From Pelagibius litoralis (GTDB lineage: Bacteria > Pseudomonadota > Alphaproteobacteria > Kiloniellales > DSM-21159): a DNA stretch of 64,000 bases. The DNA is taken from assembly GCA_029287455.1 (NCBI GenBank), contig JARFRB010000091.1, positions 1 to 64,000 on the forward strand. The letters run 5' to 3'. Shown here piece by piece: positions 45,421-64,000 of this stretch (positions are counted from its first letter, which is position 1; each line of letters opens with the position of its first letter). The position numbers and the translations under genes were made by a program. The notes under the pieces were generated by a model. It had not been told where the DNA came from, did not search any database, and worked only from the letters and a program-made list of their open reading frames with translations.

Positions 45421-46422
45421 ATGATGATATCGCCCTCCAAACCGGTCCGAGCTTTATGGGTAGAGGCGCCGCGGCGCGCGGCGCTCCGGCCGATGCGTCT
45501 GGAGGCGCCCAGCGAAGACGAGGTGCTGGTCGAAACCCTCTACAGCGGCATCAGCCGAGGCACGGAAAGCCTGGTTTTCAGCGCCGCCGTGCCGAAGAGC
45601 CAATACGAGGCCATGCGGGCGCCCTTTCAGGAAGGTGCGTTCCCCTATCCGGTGAAATATGGCTACGCCTCCGTTGGCAGAGTCCAGGAGGGCCCGGTGG
45701 AGCTGAAGGGGCGCTGCGTCTTCTGCCTCTATCCCCATCAATCCGCTTATGTTGTGCAAAGAGGGGCCGTCGTGCCCTTGCCGGAGGGCCTGCCGCCGGA
45801 GCGCGCCGTGCTCGCCGCCAATATGGAAACGGCCATCAACGGGCTTTGGGACGCAGGATCGCGGATAGGCGACCGCGTGGCCGTTGTTGGGGCCGGCACG
45901 GTCGGCTGCCTGATCGGCGCCCTTGCCCAGGCCCTGCCGGGCAGCGAGGTCACCTTGGTCGATATTGATCCGACGAAGGGCGAGGTCGCGGAGCGCCTCG
46001 GTCTCGGCTTTTGCAGCCCCGAGGCCGCGCCCAAGGACTGCGACCTGGTCTTCCACGCTAGCGGAAGCGGTGCCGGGCTGACCACGGCACTTGCCCTTGC
46101 CGGCTTCGAAGGAACGATTGTCGAGATGAGCTGGTTCGGCGATGCTCAGGTATCCTTACCGCTCGGCGAAGCGTTTCATACAAGGCGCCTGCGCTTGATT
46201 TCCTCCCAGGTCGGCGCGGTGGCAACGTCCAGGCGCGCGCGCTGGACCCACCGGCAGCGCTTGGAATTGGGGTTGCGCCTGCTGCGGGACGCGCGGTTCG
46301 ATGCGCTCGTGACCGGCGAAAGTGCATTCGAGGATCTGCCCCGCGTGTTCGAAACGATCGCCGAGGATGGCCGGGGCGTTCTGTGCCACAGGGTCCGCTA
46401 CGGGACCGATGAGGGAGGTTAA
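45421..46422 (+). CDS. MDR-family dehydrogenase without catalytic-zinc cysteine
   Basis: This protein of about 333 residues is a medium-chain dehydrogenase/reductase. The N-terminal GroES-like part reads [16 protein letters not shown], where classical enzymes have the zinc Cys and GxxHxD; no zinc Cys is seen here. The Rossmann motif is [14 protein letters not shown]. BchC-like and similar zinc-free reductases share this pattern. It is the first gene of a tight operon with the PTPS-like, glycosyltransferase and methyltransferase genes, so it probably oxidises or reduces an intermediate of that pathway with NAD(P)H. A TTG and two ATG starts lie together; 45421 is taken. Confidence 0.85.
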
Positions 46423-46425
46423 GTC

Positions 46426-46851
46426 ATGTACAGCCTTTGTGTGCGCGACCACATCATGGTCGCCCACAGTTTTCGCGGAGCCATCTTTGGCCCTGCCCAG
46501 GCGCTTCACGGCGCGACCTTCGTGGTGGACGCCGAAGTCCGCCGACCCCGCCTCGATAGCGACGGTCTGGTGGTCGATATCGGGCTGCTTTCCGCCAAGC
46601 TAAAGGCGATTCTATCCGACCTTAACTACCGGAATCTCGACGATGAGCCGGCTTTCAGCGGCCAGAACACAACGACGGAGTTCCTGGCCAAGGCGATTTT
46701 CGACCGCTTGGGCGAAGCGATTGCGCAAGGGGAGCTTGGGGTCAACGCCACGGGCCTGACCTCCCTGAAGGTGACGCTGCGCGAATCCCACCTCGCCTCG
46801 GCAAGCTATGAAGGGGAGTTGCGCTCCGCTGTAGAAGGGACCGCTCCTTGA
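46426..46851 (+). CDS. divergent 6-pyruvoyl-tetrahydropterin synthase-like protein
   Basis: This 141-residue protein keeps the PTPS/QueD fold: [55 protein letters not shown] and [13 protein letters not shown]. The zinc site keeps H14 and H28, but the third ligand (HGH) is Ala30, the catalytic Cys position is Ala24, and the Asp-His pair of the LDHR motif is N67-Y68. Canonical QueD or PTPS chemistry is therefore unlikely without different residues. It lies three bases after the dehydrogenase and its stop overlaps the glycosyltransferase start. It is more likely a related lyase or binding protein in a new pterin-type pathway. Confidence 0.82.
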
Positions 46852-47927
46852 GGGCAAGCCTTACGCCGGACAAGGTCGTCTTCGTTATACCGGGGGATCC
46901 GGAGAGCCGGACGGGCGGTTATATTTACGATCGTCGCATCATGAGCGGCCTCGAAGAGTTAGGCTGGCGCGTCGAGCTCTGTAATCTGGGCGAGGGCTTT
47001 CCCTTCCCTAGCACCAGCGTGCGGGCGACGTCGGCCAAGCAGCTTTCGGCGCTCCCGGACTCATCCCTGGTGGTTGTCGACGGCCTCGCAGGGGGTGTCC
47101 TGCCAGATGAGATGGGGGCGCTCACCAAGCGCTGCCGGCTGGTGGCGCTGGTGCATCATCCGCTTGCCCTGGAGACCGGTTTGCGCCCGGAGGACCAGGC
47201 CCGGCTCCTGCGTAGCGAAGCCGAGGGCCTTGCCCACGCGCACAGGGTCATCGTTCCAGGCCCGGCGACGGCACGCAGCCTGACACAAGACTATGGCCTC
47301 GAGCCCGGCCGAATCGGTGTGGTGAGGCCAGGTACCGATCCGATCCCAAGGCCTCAGGTGCGTCCGGCGAGGCAAACAGCGGGCGTCGCCCTCTTGATCG
47401 TGGCTACCGTGACGCCACGCAAAGGCCATGATCTACTCATCGAAGCCTTGCGACGGCTTGCCGGTCTGCCATGGACTTTGACCTGTGTTGGAAGCATGCA
47501 CCGCGATCCCGCTTATGCGCGGAAAGTGCTCGGCGCCATTGAGGATGGCGGCTTCACCGAGCGTGTTCACATGGTTGGCGAGGTGGCACCCGACCAATTG
47601 GCCCGCTACTACCAGGCCGCCGATGCCTTCGTCCTGCCGTCGTACTTGGAAGGCTACGGCATGGTTCTCGCGGATGCCCTGGCGCAAGGCTTGCCTATCA
47701 TCTCCACCAGTGGCGGCGCGATACCGGATACGGTGCCCGACGGCGCGGGCATCCTGGTGCCGCCAGGGGATTTGGAGGCTTTAGCGCAAGCCTTGGAGAA
47801 GATCATCCGCGATCCGACGCTGCGAAAACGGCTTGGCGTAGCCGCGGCGCGGGCGGCAAGCGCACTCCCGACCTGGCCCGAGTCTTCTGCCAGTTTCGCA
47901 AGGGAGCTAAGGAAAGCCGGCTCATGA
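46848..47927 (+). CDS. GT4-family glycosyltransferase
   Basis: This protein of about 359 residues is a GT-B glycosyltransferase. The N-terminal part has [17 protein letters not shown], and the C-terminal nucleotide-sugar domain has [58 protein letters not shown] with the EX7E motif, and [16 protein letters not shown]. It starts in a TTGA overlap with the PTPS-like gene and ends in an ATGA overlap with the methyltransferase gene. The operon suggests that it glycosylates a pathway product, not polysaccharide; the sugar donor is unknown. Confidence 0.9.
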
Positions 47928-48784
47928 GCGGGTTTACTGAAACTTGGCTCTCTCAACGTGAACCTTACGACCACGCTGCGCGCTCGCAAGACTTGCTCGT
48001 AGCGCTTCAGCACTGGCGGCAAGGAAGAGATGCGCTATCCGTCGTCGACCTGGGGTCTGGGACGGGCTCGAACCTGCGGGCTCTGGCGCCCGTGCTTGGC
48101 GGCCGGCAAAGCTGGACCTTGATCGATTACGACCCTTCACTTGCGGCGGCGGCCTTGGTGAAACTGCGCGGATGGGCAACCGATCAAGGCTTCAAACATA
48201 ACGAGAGCGCTTCCGGATTAAGCATCGAGGGACCCGGATTCTTCGCGGCAGTGACGTGCCGGCGGGCAGATTTGCGTCAGCTGGACGCCTTGCCCCTGGC
48301 GCCGGCGGATTTGGTCACCGGTTCGGCGCTCCTCGACCTTGTCTCGCGGGAGTGGCTTGAGCGCCTGGCCTCGGCCTGTCGCGGCAAGGCTCTTTGCTTC
48401 GCCTTGACCTTCGATGGAGACCTGGACTTCGATCCGGAAGATCCGGGTGACTCGCACTTGCGCAATGCATTCTTGAGGCACCAGGCCGGCGATAAGGGCT
48501 TTGGCCCGGCGATGGGGGCCCAAGCGCCTGGGATCGCAAGCGCAGTTCTGCGGGAACAAGGCCACCAGGTGAGCGGAGCGGCAAGCCCCTGGCGCTTGGG
48601 GCCGCGGGATCAGGCACTGCAATCGGCCCTCTTCGAAGGATACATCCAGGCCGCCAAGGAGATCGCCCCCGAGCAAGGGTCCGAGATCGATGCCTGGTTT
48701 GCGAGGAGGTCCGATCTGCTCAAGCAGGGTGCTCTCCACGTTGTGGGTCACCGGGACCTTCTGGCTCTACCCGTCGCCCCTTAA
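47924..48784 (+). CDS. class I SAM-dependent methyltransferase
   Basis: This 286-residue methyltransferase has motif I VVDLGSGTGSN (residues 40-50), an acidic ribose-binding strand TLIDYDPSL, and LVTGSALLDLVSREWLERL as motif IV/V. It starts in an ATGA overlap with the glycosyltransferase and is convergent with the RibD-type gene, overlapping it by 18 bases. It presumably methylates the glycosylated product or an intermediate. The target atom cannot be predicted. Confidence 0.88.
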   Translation: MSGFTETWLSQREPYDHAARSQDLLVALQHWRQGRDALSVVDLGSGTGSNLRALAPVLGGRQSWTLIDYDPSLAAAALVKLRGWATDQGFKHNESASGLSIEGPGFFAAVTCRRADLRQLDALPLAPADLVTGSALLDLVSREWLERLASACRGKALCFALTFDGDLDFDPEDPGDSHLRNAFLRHQAGDKGFGPAMGAQAPGIASAVLREQGHQVSGAASPWRLGPRDQALQSALFEGYIQAAKEIAPEQGSEIDAWFARRSDLLKQGALHVVGHRDLLALPVAP

Positions 48785-49456
48785 ATCCAAATCGAACAGC
48801 ACATCGTTCCCCATCGAGAACACGCGGCTCCTCGGGCGCAGCGCTTCCTTGAGCGTCTCGATTTCAGGCAAGGTGATTCCCGGGCGCCCGGATCCGATGA
48901 TCAGCGGCGCCACGCAAATCTGAAGGCGGTCCAAAGCCCGGGCCCTCAGAAACCCGGAAACCGTCGCGCCGCCCCCCTCGATGAGGACGCGGTGCAGGCT
49001 GCGGCGATTCAACTCTGCAAGTACGCTGTCCAGACAAAGCCCGCTGCCCTCCGCGGGGGCCGCGACCACTTCCGCCAAGCCGTGCCCGCCGGATGCCTCT
49101 CGCGAGAAGAGCAGGGTCGGCGCGTCCGCCTCAGTAAAGACGTGACGCTCCACAGGCAAGCGCCGGCCGGGATCGAGAACGACACGAACCGGGTTGGCGC
49201 CCTCAACTCTCCGCACCGTGAGGCGGGGATCGTCTAGCGCCACGGTGGCCGCCCCCACGACCACCGCATCCGCCAGGGCGCGTAAACGGTGCAGATGTGT
49301 CAGGTTGTCGGGACCGTTGATGTAATGTGAGGCGCCTGAGCGGGTTGCGATCCGGCCATCGAGGCTCTGCCCGAGATGCGCAAGCACCCAGGCATCCTTC
49401 ACGCAGGGCGCGTAAAGCTCTTCCTGGCCGCTAAACTCAGCGGGGCTATCTATCAT
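48767..49456 (-). CDS. RibD C-terminal reductase-like protein (deaminase domain absent)
   Basis: This 229-residue protein is a stand-alone RibD_C/DHFR-fold reductase. It opens AHLGQSLDGRIATRSGASHYINGPDNLTHLHRLRALADAVVVGAATVALDDPRLTVR, the canonical NADPH and substrate motif, and has IEGGGATVSGFL. The zinc deaminase domain of bifunctional RibD is absent. Yeast Rib7-like enzymes with this layout reduce the ribosylamino-pyrimidinone made by GTP cyclohydrolase II. It is convergent with the methyltransferase, so it is not in the same transcript, but it belongs to the same locus. Start 49456 is an ATG; a TTG six codons upstream is possible. Confidence 0.87.
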   Translation of the reverse strand: MIDSPAEFSGQEELYAPCVKDAWVLAHLGQSLDGRIATRSGASHYINGPDNLTHLHRLRALADAVVVGAATVALDDPRLTVRRVEGANPVRVVLDPGRRLPVERHVFTEADAPTLLFSREASGGHGLAEVVAAPAEGSGLCLDSVLAELNRRSLHRVLIEGGGATVSGFLRARALDRLQICVAPLIIGSGRPGITLPEIETLKEALRPRSRVFSMGNDVLFDLDLRGDG

Positions 49457-49480
49457 ACGTCCATCCCGCCGCAACCGCGT

Positions 49481-50606: not shown

Positions 50607-51164
50607 TCAAAAATAGGCGATCTCACGCAGGTCTACCTCGGCTTCATGGTCCCGGCCAAAGGCAACAATCCCAATTGATTTCAAACTTTCGGGCTTTGGC
50701 ACGCTTCGGAGTAACCAGCCGGAAGGGACAAAGTCCGTGAACGGCAAGAACACTTCGGACCATGCTTCCGTCACCTCGAAGCCGGCTTGGTAGTATTGCC
50801 ATGGCAACACAGTCCCCTCAGTACGCAAATGCACGAAGTAGCGCTGATTGTTGCCCCGGACGATGAGACGCAATCCGGCAGCGTTCTCGGGCGGCGGTGA
50901 TGACAATTCGATACGGATTTGGACGAAGCCGCCATTGTTCTCGGTGCTCACGCGACCCGTCATATGTGCGTGAGTCTCTCCGTCTTCTTGAATGAATTCG
51001 ACTTGGCCAGTGGAAACGCCACCCATCACGGTGTCGGTGATCACCCTCCACCGCGCCTCCGGCTGATTCTTGAAATCCTCGATCAACATGTTCTCCGCTA
51101 TCGCATTCGAAGGGAGCCAGAGCGTCAGAACTGCCAGTAGGTAAAGGGTAGTCGTCAAGCGCAT
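50607..51164 (-). CDS. CIA30-domain exported protein
   Basis: This 185-residue protein has a signal peptide (residues 1-23) and a CIA30/NDUFAF1-like carbohydrate-binding-fold domain. Family motifs are RWRVITDTVMGGVSTGQVEF, GGFVQIRIEL, GLRLIVRGNNQRYFVHLRTEG and WSEVFLPFTDFVPS. Mitochondrial CIA30 assists complex I assembly, while the bacterial exported versions have no settled role. It stands between a hypothetical gene and a divergent AEC transporter 230 bases away. Confidence 0.87.
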   Translation of the reverse strand: MRLTTTLYLLAVLTLWLPSNAIAENMLIEDFKNQPEARWRVITDTVMGGVSTGQVEFIQEDGETHAHMTGRVSTENNGGFVQIRIELSSPPPENAAGLRLIVRGNNQRYFVHLRTEGTVLPWQYYQAGFEVTEAWSEVFLPFTDFVPSGWLLRSVPKPESLKSIGIVAFGRDHEAEVDLREIAYF

Positions 51165-54787: not shown

Positions 54788-55117
54788 TCCACCGAAGTCC
54801 CTCGTTAAATGAATGCGGGCGCACCGAGTTTAGCGTCCTACAATGGAATTTTCGCGACAACCGGCAGCGCCCGGACGCAGGCTTCCCAACAGACGGATTG
54901 CACACGATCGGTTAGGGCACTGACAAGAGCGGTCCTTCGTGAAGACATGCAGGACACCTATTCGAATTTTTTCTTCCGGAATCACTGCAATAACAAGGAG
55001 TTGATCAGCAGCTCTCAAAAGGATGATTTGTACTTCTATGATCCTATACTAAATTTTGCGTCGCGAGGGGCTGGCCATCTCAGCCCCTTGTTTTTGCGAA
55101 CGGCAACGGGCAAGGGC
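54788..55117 (+). other. non-coding gap before GTP cyclohydrolase II
   Basis: This gap between the divergent amidohydrolase and the GTP cyclohydrolase II gene has an AT-richer stretch around 54950-55075, where promoters for both are expected. An open frame across it gives no recognisable protein. I looked for the FMN riboswitch core motif and did not see it. No clear -35/-10 pair is given. Confidence 0.5.
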
Positions 55118-56263
55118 ATGGACATCCGAGCGAGCGGCCTCAACGGCGAACCTGGCTATCTGAGGTGCGAACGGGGCCTTGGAGATTTCCGCCGGGGGCG
55201 ATGGGTTCTGTTCACGGCACGGACCACTGGCGATTCCGTGCTGGTGACAGCGGTCGAGTCCGCCTCCCCACCGGATTTCGCGGCTTTGGGGGGGCTGGAG
55301 CTGGGTGCGCCCTGGATCGCCGTTAGTCCGGAGCGGGCTAGCGCCTTGGGCTTCGAGACCCCGGAGAGCGCGTTGGCCCTCTCTCCAAAAACAAACGGGC
55401 GCACTTCGCCGAGCTTTGACAGCCTGCTGAGCGTTCTGAAGGACCCGTCTTTAGATGCGGCCAGGCCCTTGGGCATTGTTGCTAACCCCGCGCACCCAGC
55501 GGCCGAAGCCGCGCTGTCGCTCCTACGCCTGGAGCGGATTCAGCCGGCTATCGTTGGTTTCGACCTTCCCAAATCGGCGCAAAATCAAATCGATACTGCC
55601 TGCGCCGAAGGCAGCCTTGTGCGCGTATTTGACTCGGATGTAGCGACCTACCCCCGAACGCAGGCCCTCGGGTTGCGCCGCGTGAGCGAAGCCAAGGTGC
55701 CTTTGAGCGATTCCTTGGACAGCAGCTTCATCGTGTTCCGCGAGCCGGGAGGCCGCGAGCATGTGGCGATCGAAGTTGGCTCCCCAAATCGACAGGAACC
55801 GGTCTTGCTGCGCTTGCACTCAGCCTGCCTAACAGGCGATTTGTTCGGCAGCCTGCGGTGCGACTGCGGCGAGCAACTGCGTAGTGCGATCGGCCTCATG
55901 CAAGACGCGGGCGGCGGTGTGTTGCTATATCTCGCTCAAGAAGGCCGGGGTATCGGCCTTGGCAACAAAATCCGCGCCTACGCAATTCAAGACCAGGGGC
56001 TCGACACCCTGGACGCCGACCGGGTGCTTGGCTTCGGAGAGGACGAGAGGCGCTGGGAAGCGGCTGCGGCCATTCTCCGAGATTTGGGCATCTGGCGCGT
56101 GGAGTTGATGACCAACAACCCGGAAAAGATCGCCGCCCTGCGCAACGAGGGAGTACTTGTCGAGCATCGGCGAGCCCTGCAGGCCCCGATTCATCGCTAC
56201 AACGTGCGTTACATGACCGCCAAGGCGGAGCGCGCCGGCCATCTCCTTGACGATTCGGAGTAA
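55118..56263 (+). CDS. ribA: GTP cyclohydrolase II with remnant N-terminal domain
   Basis: This 381-residue protein opens the riboflavin pathway by converting GTP to 2,5-diamino-6-ribosylamino-4-pyrimidinone phosphate. The C-terminal 200 residues carry the zinc motif C237-x10-C248-x-C250 (CLTGDLFGSLRCDC) and YLAQEGRGIGLGNKIRAY. The first 170 residues occupy the place of the RibB domain of RibBA but lack its active-site motifs, so this is GTP cyclohydrolase II only. The ATG at 55118 follows AAGGGC; upstream frame extension is low in quality. It lies 6 kb from the pteridine-type cluster and may feed it as well as riboflavin. Confidence 0.9.
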   Translation: MDIRASGLNGEPGYLRCERGLGDFRRGRWVLFTARTTGDSVLVTAVESASPPDFAALGGLELGAPWIAVSPERASALGFETPESALALSPKTNGRTSPSFDSLLSVLKDPSLDAARPLGIVANPAHPAAEAALSLLRLERIQPAIVGFDLPKSAQNQIDTACAEGSLVRVFDSDVATYPRTQALGLRRVSEAKVPLSDSLDSSFIVFREPGGREHVAIEVGSPNRQEPVLLRLHSACLTGDLFGSLRCDCGEQLRSAIGLMQDAGGGVLLYLAQEGRGIGLGNKIRAYAIQDQGLDTLDADRVLGFGEDERRWEAAAAILRDLGIWRVELMTNNPEKIAALRNEGVLVEHRRALQAPIHRYNVRYMTAKAERAGHLLDDSE

Positions 56264-58288: not shown

Positions 58289-58894
58289 CTACTGGCGGAT
58301 CGCCTCGACCTCGATGATCATCTCCACCTCATCGCCCACCCAACCGTTCTCCACGGCATAACTCATGCCGAAGTCGCTGCGCTTCACCGTTCCGCGTGCC
58401 GAGACGCCGGCGACGTAGTTGGGGGCGCCGCCGGTCGCGGAGAAGGGATACTCCCCTGTCTTGTTGAGGGTCACGTCCAAGGTAACTGGGTTGGTGATCC
58501 CTCGAATCGTCAGATCTCCCGTAACCTTGCCAGTGGATGCTCCGGTGGCTTCCGCATCGGTCATCACAAAAGTGATCTCCGGGTACTGCTCGACGTCCAA
58601 GAAATCCTTGCTTCGCACATGCTGGTCCCGCTGCTTGTGCTTGGTGTCCACGCTCGCTGCCTGAATGGTGACCTGAAGATCGGAGAGTTTGGCGGCCTCT
58701 TCGTCGAACACGAACCCGCCGCTCACCTCATCGAACTGGCCGAGCACGTTCGCGTAACCGATATGATGAAGCATGAAGGCAACCAGGGTATGCTCCGGAT
58801 CGAGCTCGTAGCGCGCGGGTTCGGCATGTGCCGGGGCTAACAACACACCAGATATACCAATAACAAATACAGCTTCTTTAAGGTGCTTTATCAT
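58289..58894 (-). CDS. YceI-family exported protein
   Basis: This 201-residue protein has a signal peptide (cleavage near AHA|EPA) and the YceI lipocalin-like fold. Signatures are LDPEHTLVAFMLHHIGYANVLGQF, SVDTKHKQRDQHVRSKDFLDVEQYPEITFV and LTIRGITNPVTLDV. YceI proteins bind polyisoprenoids in the periplasm, and their role is unclear. The ATG at 58894 follows GGGGGGAT, and the longer frame reads through the upstream region. It is divergent from the creatininase gene with a 261-base gap. Confidence 0.92.
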   Translation of the reverse strand: MIKHLKEAVFVIGISGVLLAPAHAEPARYELDPEHTLVAFMLHHIGYANVLGQFDEVSGGFVFDEEAAKLSDLQVTIQAASVDTKHKQRDQHVRSKDFLDVEQYPEITFVMTDAEATGASTGKVTGDLTIRGITNPVTLDVTLNKTGEYPFSATGGAPNYVAGVSARGTVKRSDFGMSYAVENGWVGDEVEMIIEVEAIRQ

Positions 58895-59155
58895 CGGGAA
58901 ATCCCCCCGCGCCTGTCCGTATCGCATGAAATGCCGGAACCTTCGCGAGGTCCCGGCGTTCCCGCCACCCGAGGCGGTCCCCTAGATTATCCCTAGCCGG
59001 CAAGCGCAGAAAGACACAAAACCGGGAGCGGCGGACAGGATAAATGCGCGGTCTCCGGGAGCATCGACCCCGCACCCACTGGAAAGTTCTATCGGGCAGG
59101 AGTATCTGAAGGAACAGGCAAACCGCCGAAAGCCGTAGAGGAGGCACGCCGGCCG

Positions 59156-59965
59156 GTGACTGAAAGACCGCGGAAACACTTCGCGGACATGACGTCCAGC
59201 GAGATCGCCGGGCTCGATTTCGAGAGAACGGTCGCGGTCCTGCCGGTGGCGGCTATTGAGCAGCACGGCCCGCACCTGCCCTTGAGCGTTGATGCCACGA
59301 TTAACCGCGGCATTGTAGAGCGCGCCATGGAAACCCTTCCCGATGACCTTCCCGCGACATTTCTTCCCGCTTTCGAGATTGGCCGCTCGGAGGAACACCA
59401 GGCCTTTCCCGGGACTCTCTCGATCAAGCCCCACTCCCTGGCGCAAGCTTGGACCGACATCGGCGAGTCACTGCATAGGTCGGGTTTCCGAAAGCTTCTG
59501 TTTTTCAACAGTCACGGCGGTCAGCCGCAAGTGATGGATCTCGTCGCCCGGGATTTGCGGGTCCGCCTAGGCATGTTCGTTGTCATGGCGAATTGGTATG
59601 ACCTGGGCATGCCGCCCCTGCCCTTCGACGCAATGGAATTGGCGCATGGGATTCATGGTGGGGCGATCGAGACCTCGATGATGCTGCATCTCAGGCCAGA
59701 CCTCGTGCGCACTGATGAAATTGATAATTTTGTTCCGGCGTATCTCGACGATCCGGATGCCGAGCGTCGTTTACTGGGGCCGCACGGGCCCGCCGCCTAT
59801 GCTTGGGCAACCCAAGACCTAAATCTTTCCGGTGCAGTAGGCGACGCCCGCCAAGCCAATGCCGAGGTCGGAGAACTGTTGGTTACCCACGCCGCGGAGA
59901 ACTTGGTCAAGCTGCTGCGCGAGATCCGGGATTTTCCGTTGGAACAGGTGCGCTCAACACCCTAA
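59156..59965 (+). CDS. creatininase-family metal amidohydrolase
   Basis: This 269-residue protein has the creatininase-fold metal site: E35-x-H37 in EQHGPHLPLSVD with D46, H120 in FNSHGGQP, and the acidic residue in HGGAIETS. The family includes creatininase, MftE and the FAPy deformylase ArfB, which removes formate from GTP-derived pyrimidines in archaea. Its presence within 4 kb of GTP cyclohydrolase II and within 10 kb of the RibD-type reductase fits a pyrimidine-product pathway but does not prove it. GTG start is preceded by GAGGAGG. It overlaps opgH, on the other strand, by 59 bases. Confidence 0.88.
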   Translation: MTERPRKHFADMTSSEIAGLDFERTVAVLPVAAIEQHGPHLPLSVDATINRGIVERAMETLPDDLPATFLPAFEIGRSEEHQAFPGTLSIKPHSLAQAWTDIGESLHRSGFRKLLFFNSHGGQPQVMDLVARDLRVRLGMFVVMANWYDLGMPPLPFDAMELAHGIHGGAIETSMMLHLRPDLVRTDEIDNFVPAYLDDPDAERRLLGPHGPAAYAWATQDLNLSGAVGDARQANAEVGELLVTHAAENLVKLLREIRDFPLEQVRSTP

Positions 59966-61955
59966 CCGCGCGGTCCAAGGCGCCAAGGTCCGTCATCACG
60001 GCAGCTTCTTCCTTGCCGTCGAGCTGGCGGCCTGCCTCAAGCCGGGAAACCGCCGTGCTGACCAACGCCTGGGGTGCTGGCATTTCTCCGCTGCCCGCGA
60101 TCAGAGCCCGGTGCAGGGCAAGCCGCTTCGGGTCTGCCGCGAGCGCCTGCAACGCGCTGCCTTCCACCTCGCTAACGCGCGAGGCGGCCAAGATCTCACG
60201 AGCGCGCCGCAAGACAGGCAAAGGCTCGGTTTCTTCGGGGATTCGGAAAATGCCAAGCCGCCCCATCCAATCGCCAAGCTTCAAGCTCGCTGTTGCGAAG
60301 GACAGGAGTGGGGCCAGGATCAATCCTGCTGCCAAGGGCGAAAACCACCATCCAAGGCTCTGCGGCAGAACAATAAATACGCTGGCTAACAGGATGCCGG
60401 CAAGAACCTGGGCGCGGTGCCGGTCAAAGGCTTCACGCAGGCTCACCTTACCTTCCTCGCGCCGCTGGCTGCCCCATCCGCTGTCGCGCCCTATCAGGAC
60501 CTCCAGCACGAAGCTGGTGTGGAACAACATCATCGCAGGCGCGATCAAGGTGGAGAAGATCAGCTCCAGGATCAGGCTTCCCGTAGCCCGAAGGCGGCCG
60601 CCGAATAGCCTCGCTCGGCGTCCATCCAGCAAAATCGCCAGCAAGCTGAAAAGCTTAGGCGCGAAAAGCATCGCCATGGCGAGGGCGAAGAGCTGGATCG
60701 CCGCCCAGGGATCCGACTGGGGCCAAACAGGAAAGGGGCTGTGATCCATGAAATATCGGGTCTTTGCTAGATGGGTTTCCACGGCGGCTGCGAGACCGAC
60801 CAGCAAGAACACGAGCCAGAGCGGAGAGGCCGCGTAGGACATGACCCCCATTGCCAGGTGCAAGCGGCTGATCGGGTGGAGCCCCTTGGCCACCAAGATC
60901 TTCATGTGCTGCAAGTTGCCCTGGCACCATCGCCGGTCGCGCACGGCGAAGTCGAGGACGGTGGGTGGCGACTCCTCATAGCTGCCGCCAAGCTCCGGCA
61001 CCATCCAGACCTTCCAGCCCCCGCGCCTCAGCAAGGCTGCTTCAACGAAATCGTGGCTGAGAATGAGCCCGCCGAAGGGTGCCTGCCCCGGCAAATTCGG
61101 CAGCCCGCAGCATTCCGTGAAGGCACGCACGCGGATAATCGCGTTGTGCCCCCAAAAGTTTCCCTCCCCGAGTTGCCAGAAGGCCAAGCCTCGGGCCAGC
61201 ACGGGTGTTGCGAGCGCGCTCGCAAACTGCTGCATGCGCGCGAAAAGGCTGCGGCGGTTGATCAAGGTCGGCGGAACTTGCAGCAATCCGGCCGAGGGAT
61301 TGGCCTCCATGATTCTGGCCAACTCCACCAGGGTGTCCGCCGTCATCAGGCTGTCCGCGTCGAGAACCACCATGAAATCGTAGCGAGCACCCCAGCGACG
61401 GCAGAAATCGGCTATATTGCCGCTCTTGCGCGCACGGTTTTCGCTGCGCCTGCGGTAGTAGATGGCACCGCCCTGCCCCGCCCTTGCGCGGGTAAGATCG
61501 AACCAAGCTTGCTGCTCGGCCAGCCAAACCTTTGGATCGGTGGTGTCGCTCAGGATGAAGACATCGAATACCTCGCCTTCGCCGGTATCGGCCAGAGCCT
61601 CATGCATGGCTTGCACACGCGCGAAGACCTCTCGCGGGTCCTCGTTGTAGACCGGCATTAAGATGGCTGTCCGGCTCTCCAACGTTCGCCCTGGCTTTGG
61701 CCTTGCCAGGCCCTGCGGCCGCCAGCGGGTCAGCAAGGCGAAGAAGCCGACAAGGGAGGTCCAGAAGGACAAGGAAATCCACAGGAAGCTGACGGCAAAG
61801 AGCACCAGCAAAAGCGCCTCGAAGATACCGAGACCGTTGAGGCTCAAAACGGCGCGCAGCTCCAAGGTCGCGAGGCCCGTGGTCAGCACTGCCGTCCCGA
61901 AGACGGCAGCCCTGCGCAACATCGGGTCCACGCCGGAAATCGCCAGACGGCGCAT
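59907..61955 (-). CDS. opgH: glucan biosynthesis glucosyltransferase OpgH
   Basis: This 682-residue inner-membrane GT2 enzyme polymerises glucose for osmoregulated periplasmic glucans. It has several helices at both ends and a cytoplasmic catalytic domain: TAILMPVYNEDP, the DxD in VLDADSLM, LILSHDFVEAALLRRGGWKVW, and RRWCQGNLQHMK in place of QxxRW. Length is shorter than the gammaproteobacterial enzyme (about 850) because the N-terminal extension is missing, as in other alphaproteobacteria. It follows the small gene and opgG on the same strand. Confidence 0.94.
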   Translation of the reverse strand: MRRLAISGVDPMLRRAAVFGTAVLTTGLATLELRAVLSLNGLGIFEALLLVLFAVSFLWISLSFWTSLVGFFALLTRWRPQGLARPKPGRTLESRTAILMPVYNEDPREVFARVQAMHEALADTGEGEVFDVFILSDTTDPKVWLAEQQAWFDLTRARAGQGGAIYYRRRSENRARKSGNIADFCRRWGARYDFMVVLDADSLMTADTLVELARIMEANPSAGLLQVPPTLINRRSLFARMQQFASALATPVLARGLAFWQLGEGNFWGHNAIIRVRAFTECCGLPNLPGQAPFGGLILSHDFVEAALLRRGGWKVWMVPELGGSYEESPPTVLDFAVRDRRWCQGNLQHMKILVAKGLHPISRLHLAMGVMSYAASPLWLVFLLVGLAAAVETHLAKTRYFMDHSPFPVWPQSDPWAAIQLFALAMAMLFAPKLFSLLAILLDGRRARLFGGRLRATGSLILELIFSTLIAPAMMLFHTSFVLEVLIGRDSGWGSQRREEGKVSLREAFDRHRAQVLAGILLASVFIVLPQSLGWWFSPLAAGLILAPLLSFATASLKLGDWMGRLGIFRIPEETEPLPVLRRAREILAASRVSEVEGSALQALAADPKRLALHRALIAGSGEMPAPQALVSTAVSRLEAGRQLDGKEEAAVMTDLGALDRAVRVLSAPVPTENPGSRAAA

Positions 61956-62574: not shown

Positions 62575-64000
62575 TCAGGCTGTCCACTGATAGCTCCACG
62601 TTTCGCTCAAAGTTTCGTCTCCCAGACGCAGGAAGCACCGCAGCTCAACAGGGTCCGAACCATCCGGTTCAATGTCAAAGAACACGCGCCAGCCGCCGGT
62701 TGCGTAATTGCGCTGAACGATAGACGTCGGCGGCACTTCCAAATTGGTCGAGAGCATTGCTTCCACGGGTGAATCTGCCCCCAAATCCGGCAAAATTCCA
62801 CCTTCGAAGTCTATGACAAATTTGCGCCCTGACGCGCCTTCGGGACTGCCGGGTATGCCTGCGCGACCTATACGTGTCTCCACCGCCTCCGCTCCTGCCG
62901 GCTCGACGGGAGGCCGCACGCACCAATGCAGCCGGTAATCGACCAGCCACTCCTCCCCTGCGCGTACGGCACGCTCGGGGCGCCAGAAGGCGACGATGTT
63001 GTCATGAATCTCGTAATCGGTGGGGATCTCCACCAACTGCACGACACCGCGGCCGAAAGGCGACAGGGGCTCCACCCATAGGCTCGGCCGCAGGTCGTAG
63101 CGCGCTTCGAGGTCCTGAAAATCCTCAAAGCCGCGCGCCCGCTGCAGCAATCCGAAGCCCCGTGGATTTTCGTCGGCGTAGAAGCTCAGGCGAAGGGTCT
63201 CCGGATTGACCAGGGGGCGCCAAATCCGCTCCCCCGTACCGGTAACCATTGATAAGCCATCGGAATCGTGGACACGCGGACGAAAGTCGTCGACGCCCAC
63301 GCGATCGTTCGGGCTGAAAAGGAACATCGAGGTCAGGGGTGCAATGCCCATGGTGTCGATGTCGTTGCGCGGATAAAGCGCGGCCGACACATCCATGGCC
63401 GTGGTTTGCCCCGGACGAAGCTTGAAGGTAAAGGCCCCGGCCACGCTCGGTCCATCCAAGAGCGCGTGGACGGTCAAATCTTCGCTCGCTTGCGTGGGCC
63501 GCTCCAGCCAGAACGCCGTGAAGTCAGGGAACTCTTCGCCCTGCGGACGCGCAGTGTCAATGGCGAGGCCGCGCGCCGATAAACCGTAGAGCATGCCCTG
63601 CCCCACGGCGCGAAAATAGCTGGCCCCCTTGAACACGGAAAACTCGTCAAGGTAGTCAGAACTATTTAAGGAAGCATGCAAACGAAATCCCGCAAACCCA
63701 AGGAATTCAGGTAACTTTTCCTCAAAAGTGTTAGCCCCATAATCAAAAAGATCGGCCCGGTAGAGCACCTCACGCGCTTCGCCGCCAGCGACTTCGAAGA
63801 TATGCACAGGCCGGTCGAACAGGGCCCCCAGATGGAAGAACTGCGCGCGGAAAGGAAATGCCTCCGCCGACCAAAGCGCCTGGTCCGTCCTAAAACGAAT
63901 ATCGCGCAACTGGTCATAGCTTAATTCCGCCAGGACCTTCGGAAGCTCCTCGGTCCTGCCCCGATAAGGTTCGGCGGCCAAAACGCGGGCACGCTGGCGC
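62575..64000 (-). CDS. glucan biosynthesis protein OpgG/OpgD, 5' end beyond window
   Basis: At least 475 codons of an OpgG/OpgD (MdoG) protein, open at the right edge of the window, so the start and signal peptide lie beyond 64000. Periplasmic OpgG/OpgD shapes glucan chains made by OpgH. Family motifs are LSYDQLRDIRFRTDQALW, FHLGALFDRPVHIFEV, RAVGQGMLYGLSARGLAI, PNDRVGVDDFRPRVHDSDGLSM and FGLLQRARGFEDFQDLEARYDLRPSLWVEP. It is the first gene here of the opgG-small gene-opgH order. OpgG and OpgD cannot be separated without the N-terminus. Confidence 0.93.
   Translation of the reverse strand, partial: RQRARVLAAEPYRGRTEELPKVLAELSYDQLRDIRFRTDQALWSAEAFPFRAQFFHLGALFDRPVHIFEVAGGEAREVLYRADLFDYGANTFEEKLPEFLGFAGFRLHASLNSSDYLDEFSVFKGASYFRAVGQGMLYGLSARGLAIDTARPQGEEFPDFTAFWLERPTQASEDLTVHALLDGPSVAGAFTFKLRPGQTTAMDVSAALYPRNDIDTMGIAPLTSMFLFSPNDRVGVDDFRPRVHDSDGLSMVTGTGERIWRPLVNPETLRLSFYADENPRGFGLLQRARGFEDFQDLEARYDLRPSLWVEPLSPFGRGVVQLVEIPTDYEIHDNIVAFWRPERAVRAGEEWLVDYRLHWCVRPPVEPAGAEAVETRIGRAGIPGSPEGASGRKFVIDFEGGILPDLGADSPVEAMLSTNLEVPPTSIVQRNYATGGWRVFFDIEPDGSDPVELRCFLRLGDETLSETWSYQWTA

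Follow-up and report, generated by a model that had tools for sequence, protein, structure and literature searches.

A conserved gene cluster around an altered PTPS-fold protein, predicted to make a glycosylated and methylated GTP-derived pterin or pyrimidine

What product could call for a PTPS-type protein, a riboflavin-type reductase and a glycosyltransferase encoded side by side? The question is raised by a 64,000-nucleotide stretch of the Pelagibius litoralis genome (assembly GCA_029287455.1, contig JARFRB010000091.1, positions 1 to 64,000; hereafter the window). A previous reading made from the letters alone (the sequence-only reading) had suggested that these genes belong to an undescribed pathway in which a GTP-derived pyrimidine is reduced, modified, glycosylated and methylated. 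Following up this suggestion with searches of other genomes, protein profiles and structures, we arrive at a related answer, to which we assign a probability of about 60%: the genes form a conserved, dedicated pathway leading to a 2-aminopyrimidine or pterin that is made from GTP and then glycosylated and methylated. The genes in question are the following.

45421-46422, + strand: zinc-less MDR dehydrogenase (open reading frame, start codon read; Pfam, 27.5 bits)
46426-46851, + strand: PTPS-like (T-fold) protein of the SCO6650/3D7J type (Pfam PTPS, 78 bits)
46848-47927, + strand: GT4 (GT-B) glycosyltransferase (Pfam, 109 bits)
47924-48784, + strand: class I S-adenosylmethionine-dependent methyltransferase (Pfam, 25.2 bits; structure model)
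48767-49474, - strand: RibD_C reductase, reductase-only (Pfam, 134 bits; deaminase domain absent)
54809-56263, + strand: GTP cyclohydrolase II with a degenerate RibB-like N-terminal domain (Pfam GTP_cyclohydro2, 172 bits)
59156-59965, + strand: creatininase-family amidohydrolase, candidate formamidase (predicted BrbF/ArfB-like role)

The first four genes (the core) are near-contiguous on the + strand, with a gap of 3 bases between the MDR and PTPS-like genes and overlaps of 4 bases at the next two junctions, and the reductase gene converges on them, overlapping the end of the methyltransferase gene by 18 bases. This grouping is as originally described, and so is the proximity of GTP cyclohydrolase II and the creatininase-family gene, which start at 54809 and 59156 and lie about 5 kb and 10 kb beyond the core, the latter gene being surrounded by YceI, OpgH and OpgG genes.

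We searched 289 alphaproteobacterial genomes with the PTPS-like protein (E 1e-8) and found it in 36 of them, the window's own included (about one in eight). A phylum-wide sample gave at least 19 positive genomes out of 299 at E 1e-25, again with the window's own, which is a lower bound because scoring was limited to 14 candidates in many genomes. Among named genomes at least 589 relatives were confirmed, and the best 80 of these (the named loci) comprise 43 actinobacterial, 18 gamma-, 8 beta- and 4 alphaproteobacterial, 4 acidobacterial, 2 gemmatimonadal and 1 unclassified proteobacterial loci. In the stretches around the PTPS-like matches at the 35 other alphaproteobacterial loci, partner genes were scored by tblastn (E 1e-6). 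Since gene calls in the fetched loci were mechanical, all partner counts in loci are lower bounds.

Beside the PTPS-like gene, the 35 alphaproteobacterial loci carry the MDR gene in 34 cases, GT4 in 33, the methyltransferase in 31 and the reductase in 27, followed by GTP cyclohydrolase II (12, one of them a weak match of 51 bits), YceI (8) and creatininase (6). The corresponding counts for the 80 named loci are 80 for MDR, 80 for GT4, 78 for the methyltransferase, 54 for GTP cyclohydrolase II, 47 for the RibD_C reductase, 45 for creatininase and 13 for YceI. The order MDR, PTPS-like, GT4, methyltransferase, on one strand and within 5 kb, is kept at 30 of the 35 alphaproteobacterial loci; the five exceptions, some of which lie at the end of a contig, are short of one or two genes. 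The same strict order occurs at 75 of the 80 named loci, in four phyla; three of the remaining loci are rearranged (L100, L128, L144) and two have no methyltransferase match (L088, L112). As a built-in negative control, six other neighbours in the window (TamA, TamB, an AEC transporter, a CIA30 protein, an amidohydrolase and a 319-residue protein) were found by tblastn at none of the 35 loci.

The gene grouping is thus conserved far above chance, and its linkage is not scattered. The arrangement that the sequence-only reading named as supporting evidence, an operon to which ribA or the creatininase gene is joined, exists in full at two loci (L066 and L067) from small genomes (G161, 1.6 Mb; G259, 1.4 Mb), where all seven genes occupy about 6 kb and are directly adjacent in the order creatininase (-), MDR, PTPS-like, GT4, methyltransferase (+), reductase (-) and GTP cyclohydrolase II (+). 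G030, from the genus of G259, was not among the positive genomes in the search of 289.

Co-occurrence was examined by comparing all 36 positive alphaproteobacterial genomes with 36 of the 253 negative ones (17 of these negatives reach at least 3 Mb, and they are unmatched for size), using Fisher tests that treat genomes without regard to relatedness. A RibD_C reductase scoring above 240 bits is present in 30 of the 36 positive genomes and in none of the 36 negative ones (p 2e-14). The next best match reached 164 bits, and most lower matches fall in frames whose length would accommodate a complete RibD. A creatininase of at least 250 bits was found in 19 positive and 4 negative genomes.

The central PTPS-like protein had been called divergent, with an unrelated fold as the competing possibility. 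Its PTPS (T-fold) domain is well above the Pfam cut-off (78 bits compared to 22.4), and among solved structures a profile search places the Streptomyces coelicolor PTPS homolog SCO6650 (PDB 3D7J; 205 bits, E 3e-60, 131 residues) closest to it, with HGAT, AHS and LNYRNLD motifs common to both. An alignment of 36 orthologs shows His14, His28, Gly29, Ala30, Thr31 and Glu120 to be invariant, whereas the usual third zinc histidine is an alanine (HGAT for HGH) and the Leu-Asp-His stretch has become Leu-Asn-Tyr or similar, LDH being absent from the alignment. All 35 sampled orthologs have HGAT, and so do all 80 named ones, although the latter were selected with HGA-containing patterns, so the 35 give the fair count. 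A catalytic cysteine in the loop was seen in none of the 35 sampled orthologs and in none of the 80 named ones. Here we take three zinc histidines, a catalytic cysteine and an Asp-His pair to be the functional motifs of PTPS, and Glu120 presumably corresponds to the glutamate that anchors pterins in that enzyme. The QueD model TIGR03367 gives 39.8 bits against a cut-off of 89.25. Because the catalytic cysteine and one zinc-site histidine are gone, we assign the protein, on its sequence, to the PTPS fold family but to neither QueD nor classical PTPS, so that "divergent PTPS" was an apt description. The structural study of SCO6650 reportedly found no zinc, no triad and no PTPS activity but a preserved pterin-like pocket.

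Two further members of the family deserve mention. The other PTPS-family protein of the window's genome (L001; G000:C35:1233-1577) has HGH and LDH motifs and apparently no cysteine before HGH, unlike standard QueD, which we take to have one; none of the neighbours that recur with the PTPS-like gene was found in the 3-kb stretch around its gene. On a Streptomyces anthocyanicus plasmid (NZ_CP109229.1; L148, 9001-9426), a PTPS-like ortholog adjoins MEKHLA and cupin genes.

The other core proteins are less specific in their relationships. The MDR protein scores just below its Pfam cut-off (27.5 compared to 31.8 bits), yet it aligns well with its orthologs; its likeness to BchC is remote (60 bits, cut-off 291), and its relatives are named "zinc-binding alcohol dehydrogenase" at NCBI. 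In 25 of 25 aligned MDRs, Ser-x-Gly-Thr-Glu and Gly-Tyr-x replace Cys-x-x-Gly-Thr-Asp and Gly-His-Glu, which we assume to be the catalytic zinc motifs, in line with the earlier description of this enzyme as zinc-less. The solved chains nearest to the GT4 protein are Tll1590 and D-inositol 3-phosphate glycosyltransferase (MshA-like), and no pteridine transferase appeared among the best 60 of 86 matches in the structure comparison. The methyltransferase is likewise just below its Pfam cut-off (25.2 compared to 27 bits), yet aligns well with orthologs. Its model (pLDDT 95.9) has a generic class I small-molecule methyltransferase fold; Foldseek gave TM values of at most 0.65 among the 50 matches listed, with AtmM and RebM within ranks 4-10.

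The reductase keeps the SLDGR, DDPxLTxR and EGG motifs and has no deaminase domain. Compared by profile with solved chains, it matches best two 2,5-diamino-6-ribosylaminopyrimidinone 5'-phosphate reductases (6P8C, 155 bits; 2AZN, 139 bits), followed by a chain annotated as 3-dehydroquinate dehydratase (127 bits) and by bacterial RibD (at most 121 bits), while dihydrofolate reductases are reached weakly. It is therefore a candidate ArfC/Rib7-like pyrimidine reductase, as inferred from these profiles. The window's GTP cyclohydrolase II keeps CLTGD..SLRCDCG and KIRAYA, which hold the cysteines that presumably bind the metal and the tyrosine that we equate with position 105 of the E. coli enzyme. 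Its RibB-like N-terminal domain is degenerate, since DDEDREN, which we take to be the motif of active RibB, is absent from 11 aligned copies; because most homolog alignments begin only near residue 110, translation probably starts downstream of 54809. The window's genome contains three GTP cyclohydrolase II (PF00925) genes, on contigs C33, C47 and C56, and it also encodes FolE. A RibD-length gene stands beside the copy on C33 (the third cyclohydrolase is on C56), so the copies in the window look like extra ones.

The creatininase-family protein has the creatininase fold with its invariant acidic and histidine residues, and by analogy it is a candidate formamidase of the BrbF/ArfB type. According to the available part of the study on BrbF, this creatininase-family protein of S. 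meliloti is a formamidase that converts the formylated to the diamino pyrimidine (PMC9478397). At 38 actinobacterial loci with a readable cyclohydrolase, the equivalent of Tyr105 is Met, His or Gln in 27, all with a linked creatininase, and Tyr in 11, none of which has one; all 17 Streptomyces loci belong to the former group, with Met and a linked creatininase. We considered creatininase as a strict partner of cyclohydrolases that make FAPy and rejected it: the actinobacterial pattern reflects one change on the tree, three unlinked creatininases in Tyr-type genomes (126-134 bits) equal the other group's linked copies in score, and outside the actinobacteria Tyr-type cyclohydrolases occur both with and without creatininase. 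Given that single change, and a creatininase elsewhere in five of the Tyr-type actinobacterial genomes, the association of creatininase with non-Tyr cyclohydrolases is suggestive at most.

From the genes, their order, conservation and co-occurrence, the fold family and the residue losses, all of which are observed, we infer each chemical step and the product as follows. GTP cyclohydrolase II would yield 2,5-diamino-6-ribosylamino-4(3H)-pyrimidinone 5'-phosphate, helped in some lineages by the creatininase-family formamidase, and the deaminase-less RibD_C protein would reduce this pyrimidine to a 2-amino ribityl compound. Such a compound is an intermediate of riboflavin synthesis of the archaeal and fungal type and is not known to be made by ordinary bacterial RibD. 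The zinc-less MDR and the altered PTPS-fold protein would then alter the side chain, close a pterin ring or do both, GT4 would add a sugar and the methyltransferase would methylate. In lineages that also have a CDP-alcohol phosphotransferase (CAPT) and a flippase-like protein, the product would probably be attached to a phospholipid and translocated through the membrane.

This last step rests on partners beyond the genes first noticed. Recurrent near the cluster are CAPT, LPG_synthase_TM (flippase-like), an FkbM methyltransferase, an LtaS-like enzyme, an OpgH-like transferase and cytochrome b561. Further features of the window include genes of this kind.

50607-51164: CIA30-domain protein (Pfam, 91.8 bits), between the cluster and an AEC-type transporter
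58289-58927, - strand: YceI-family protein (beside the cluster at 8 of 35 alphaproteobacterial and 13 of 80 named loci)
59910-61955, - strand: OpgH/MdoH-type membrane glucosyltransferase
62578-63981, - strand: OpgG/MdoG, adjoining OpgH in the window

CAPT, which is not in the window, is linked at 8 of the 35 alphaproteobacterial and 48 of the 80 named loci. The protein is clearly recognized by Pfam (51 bits, cut-off 22), and in an alignment of 15 sequences the signature D-x2-D-G-x2-A-R-x8-G-x3-D-x3-D, which we take to be that of the family, is invariant or nearly so. Across genomes, CAPT occurs in 19 of the 36 positive and none of the 36 negative ones (Fisher p 1.5e-7), with 35 candidates scored in the larger genomes so that misses are possible in both groups; in G015, G184, G205 and G233 it lies on another contig or far from the cluster. 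LPG_synthase_TM is found at 58 of the 80 named and none of the 35 alphaproteobacterial loci, and OpgH-like genes near the cluster at 10 and 8, respectively. At the 35 alphaproteobacterial loci CAPT and OpgH are each linked eight times and never together, whereas Halomonas loci have both. MdoG was not found in seven OpgH-linked alphaproteobacterial genomes (those of L045, L049, L052, L053, L055, L056 and L065, where the OpgH-like gene is close to MDR), so these OpgH-like transferases may not make ordinary periplasmic glucans. The LtaS-like family (F9; L083, 5899-7599, and 19 related open reading frames) is present at 6 of the 8 betaproteobacterial loci. The members scanned gave no Pfam or NCBIfam match, and in a fold search the structure model resembles LtaS/LtaP and phosphoglycerol transferases of the alkaline-phosphatase superfamily.

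PTPS-like matches also occur in 21 plasmid records, and of four that we examined, three carry the core with RibD_C, the fourth being the S. anthocyanicus plasmid with its solitary PTPS-like ortholog. A mobilizable 59-kb plasmid of Microbacterium sp. SGAir0570 (L151, 6194-11969) encodes CAPT, MDR, PTPS, GT4, methyltransferase (MT), LPG_TM and RibD, a Thiodictyon plasmid has MDR-PTPS-GT4-MT-cytochrome b-RibD-CAPT with transposases nearby, and a Methylosinus plasmid has MdoH-MDR-PTPS-GT4-MT-RibD; CAPT is thus present in two of the three. Since a seven-gene cassette sits on the small Microbacterium plasmid, the pathway is probably horizontally mobile, and these copies fit a portable cassette that draws on the first product of the riboflavin pathway.

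A more specific and only tentative proposal is that the product is a membrane-anchored "pterin glycophospholipid" whose ring is built by a novel route. RibD_C would reduce C1' of what GTP cyclohydrolase II makes, MDR would oxidise C2' and the PTPS-fold protein would close the 2'-ketone on the 5-amino group, which would give a dihydroneopterin-type pterin; CAPT would join the lipid and the flippase-like protein would export the product. Such a ring closure would substitute redox chemistry on two enzymes for the Amadori step that GTP cyclohydrolase I carries out.

Several observations weigh against the pathway as a whole. Linkage of GTP cyclohydrolase II and creatininase is low at the alphaproteobacterial loci (12 and 6 of 35), which leaves the reductase as the main basis for assigning the substrate, and neither gene was found by tblastn in the stretches examined around the three plasmid copies, which weakens the case for both as core genes. 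The reductase itself is lacking in dedicated form from six of the 36 positive alphaproteobacterial genomes (one of them only 68% complete), and 16 of the 17 Streptomyces loci have no RibD_C reductase nearby. RibD_C matches elsewhere in 11 actinobacterial genomes of the Met/His type that we tried reach 73-111 bits, and because three of them (98-111 bits) are comparable to the linked reductases of Micromonospora and Actinoplanes (94-115 bits), an unlinked reductase may serve in such genomes. The window's reductase remains below the NCBIfam cut-offs of TIGR00227 (134 of 150 bits), TIGR01508 for the archaeal reductase (107 of 186) and TIGR00326 for RibD (104 of 156), with the general RibD model scoring above the archaeal one; as none of these models reaches its cut-off, it represents a diverged subfamily. 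On the side of the formamidase, the actinobacterial pattern of Tyr and creatininase corresponds to a single change on the tree, six of the 11 Tyr-type genomes have no creatininase-family match while five have one elsewhere, and two distant BrbF homologs failed complementation, according to the available part of that study (PMC9478397). The 18-kb stretch around the S. anthocyanicus ortholog holds no MDR, GT4 or methyltransferase gene, and a second use of the family is possible there. Finally, no CAPT of this family was detected in the window's genome among 35 of 69 candidates scored, so the lipid-joining step may not apply to this host.

Could the same genes be explained differently? The set includes three riboflavin-type enzymes (GTP cyclohydrolase II, RibD_C and creatininase), and the formamidase of S. 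meliloti serves riboflavin synthesis (PMC9478397, available part), as would be expected if the core acted on a flavin or its precursor in a second, dedicated branch for secretion or special regulation. We regard such a branch as improbable, since no lumazine or riboflavin synthase was among the recurrent neighbour families identified (a census of 36 families present in at least 6 of 116 stretches, in which 20 of the 22 otherwise unnamed ones were scanned with one representative each), the RibB-like domain is degenerate, the linked reductase lacks a deaminase domain and the RibD-length gene with its cyclohydrolase is elsewhere in the genome. T-fold, GT4 and MDR proteins have, to our knowledge, no place in flavin synthesis, which also counts against it. 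An ordinary riboflavin operon was rejected on the basis of the extra copies, the degenerate RibB domain and the lack of riboflavin synthase among the recurrent families identified. A queuosine-like 7-deazapurine nucleoside pathway with a QueD-like enzyme would suit the database label "6-carboxytetrahydropterin synthase" given to the PTPS-like gene; with a QueD score so far below its cut-off, neither QueE nor QueC among the recurrent families identified and another PTPS-family gene in the genome that carries the HGH and LDH motifs, it is hardly credible and was likewise rejected.

Two other explanations were considered. A soluble pterin glycoside could derive from the dihydroneopterin of the folate route, given that FolE is encoded in the genome, with RibD_C as a dihydropterin reductase of the dihydrofolate reductase fold (such reductases being weakly reached by the RibD_C profile) and GTP cyclohydrolase II as an incidental neighbour; the pteridine glycosyltransferase of Chlorobium is reported as GT-1/AviGT4-like in the available part of PMC5683033. 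This possibility is doubtful, because the recurrent cyclohydrolase is GTP cyclohydrolase II (12 of 35 and 54 of 80 loci) with no GTP cyclohydrolase I among the recurrent families identified, RibD_C keeps RibD-type motifs and the catalytic residues of PTPS are gone. The recurrence of CAPT, LPG_synthase_TM, LtaS-like and OpgH-like partners, together with the frequent lack of linked cyclohydrolase and creatininase, would be accounted for by an envelope glycoconjugate unrelated to GTP, for which the PTPS-fold protein would have been recruited to bind a different ligand, the riboflavin-type genes being nearby for regulatory or historical reasons. That is unlikely in view of RibD_C, which 30 of the 36 genomes and all three plasmid copies combine with the core, and of Glu120, which is kept throughout the PTPS-like family and is presumably pterin-anchoring.

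The proposed GTP-derived pathway to a glycosylated, methylated pyrimidine or pterin is kin to other GTP-derived pteridine and pyrimidine pathways, and we could match its product to no known compound. One parallel lies in the archaeal ArfA-ArfB-ArfC steps. With these and with BrbF (PMC9478397), it shares a GTP ring opener, a formamidase and a RibD_C-type reductase leading to a 2-amino ribityl pyrimidine. It differs in that the ring opener is GTP cyclohydrolase II, not III, and that the genes are linked to MDR, T-fold, GT4 and methyltransferase genes rather than to riboflavin genes. The pteridine glycosides of cyanobacteria and Chlorobium start from the product of a catalytically normal PTPS. 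The likeness to these (for example cyanopterin, or the Chlorobium system with PGT, PMC5683033) consists of a PTPS-type protein, a glycosyltransferase and the idea of methylation, whereas here the PTPS-fold protein has lost catalytic residues and the set includes GTP cyclohydrolase II and RibD_C. SCO6650 belongs to the same protein family and has the same altered motifs as the window's protein; its study is said to have characterised the single protein and assigned no pathway or product. SCO6655-type GTP cyclohydrolase II reportedly makes the formylated product FAPy. The 17 Streptomyces loci carry Met at the Tyr105 equivalent, while the window's copy and the readable proteobacterial ones keep Tyr, so the ordinary deformylated product is expected from these.

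The statement that no characterised pathway has this gene set holds for the pathway in the open-access literature, where we found no description of the set (most subscription journals are outside that scope), but not for two of its parts, the SCO6650 structure and the SCO6655 variant, which are reportedly in print for S. coelicolor. A 2026 review of bacterial pterins mentions cyanobacterial pterin glycosides and, in its available part, neither PTPS nor GTP cyclohydrolase II (PMC13259868). In the available parts of two expression studies, SCO6655 and SCO6652 appear once each in tables with no pathway comment (PMC2853524, PMC3610822). SCO6652, a hypothetical gene numbered close to SCO6650, has values of 0.8, 4.3 and 4.1 in the S. 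coelicolor differentiation table (PMC3610822, available part).

The block is spread over Streptomyces, Micromonospora, Halomonas, Variovorax, alphaproteobacteria with small genomes and some plasmids, and the annotated records examined name its genes piecemeal, as 6-carboxytetrahydropterin synthase, alcohol dehydrogenase or RibD family. Given how widely the product appears to be conserved, we consider a cofactor, a signal or a part of the envelope more likely than a compound peculiar to one species. With this gene set, the orphan PTPS homolog SCO6650/3D7J gains a pathway context, and in view of the membrane partners that recur, the product might represent a new kind of lipid head group.

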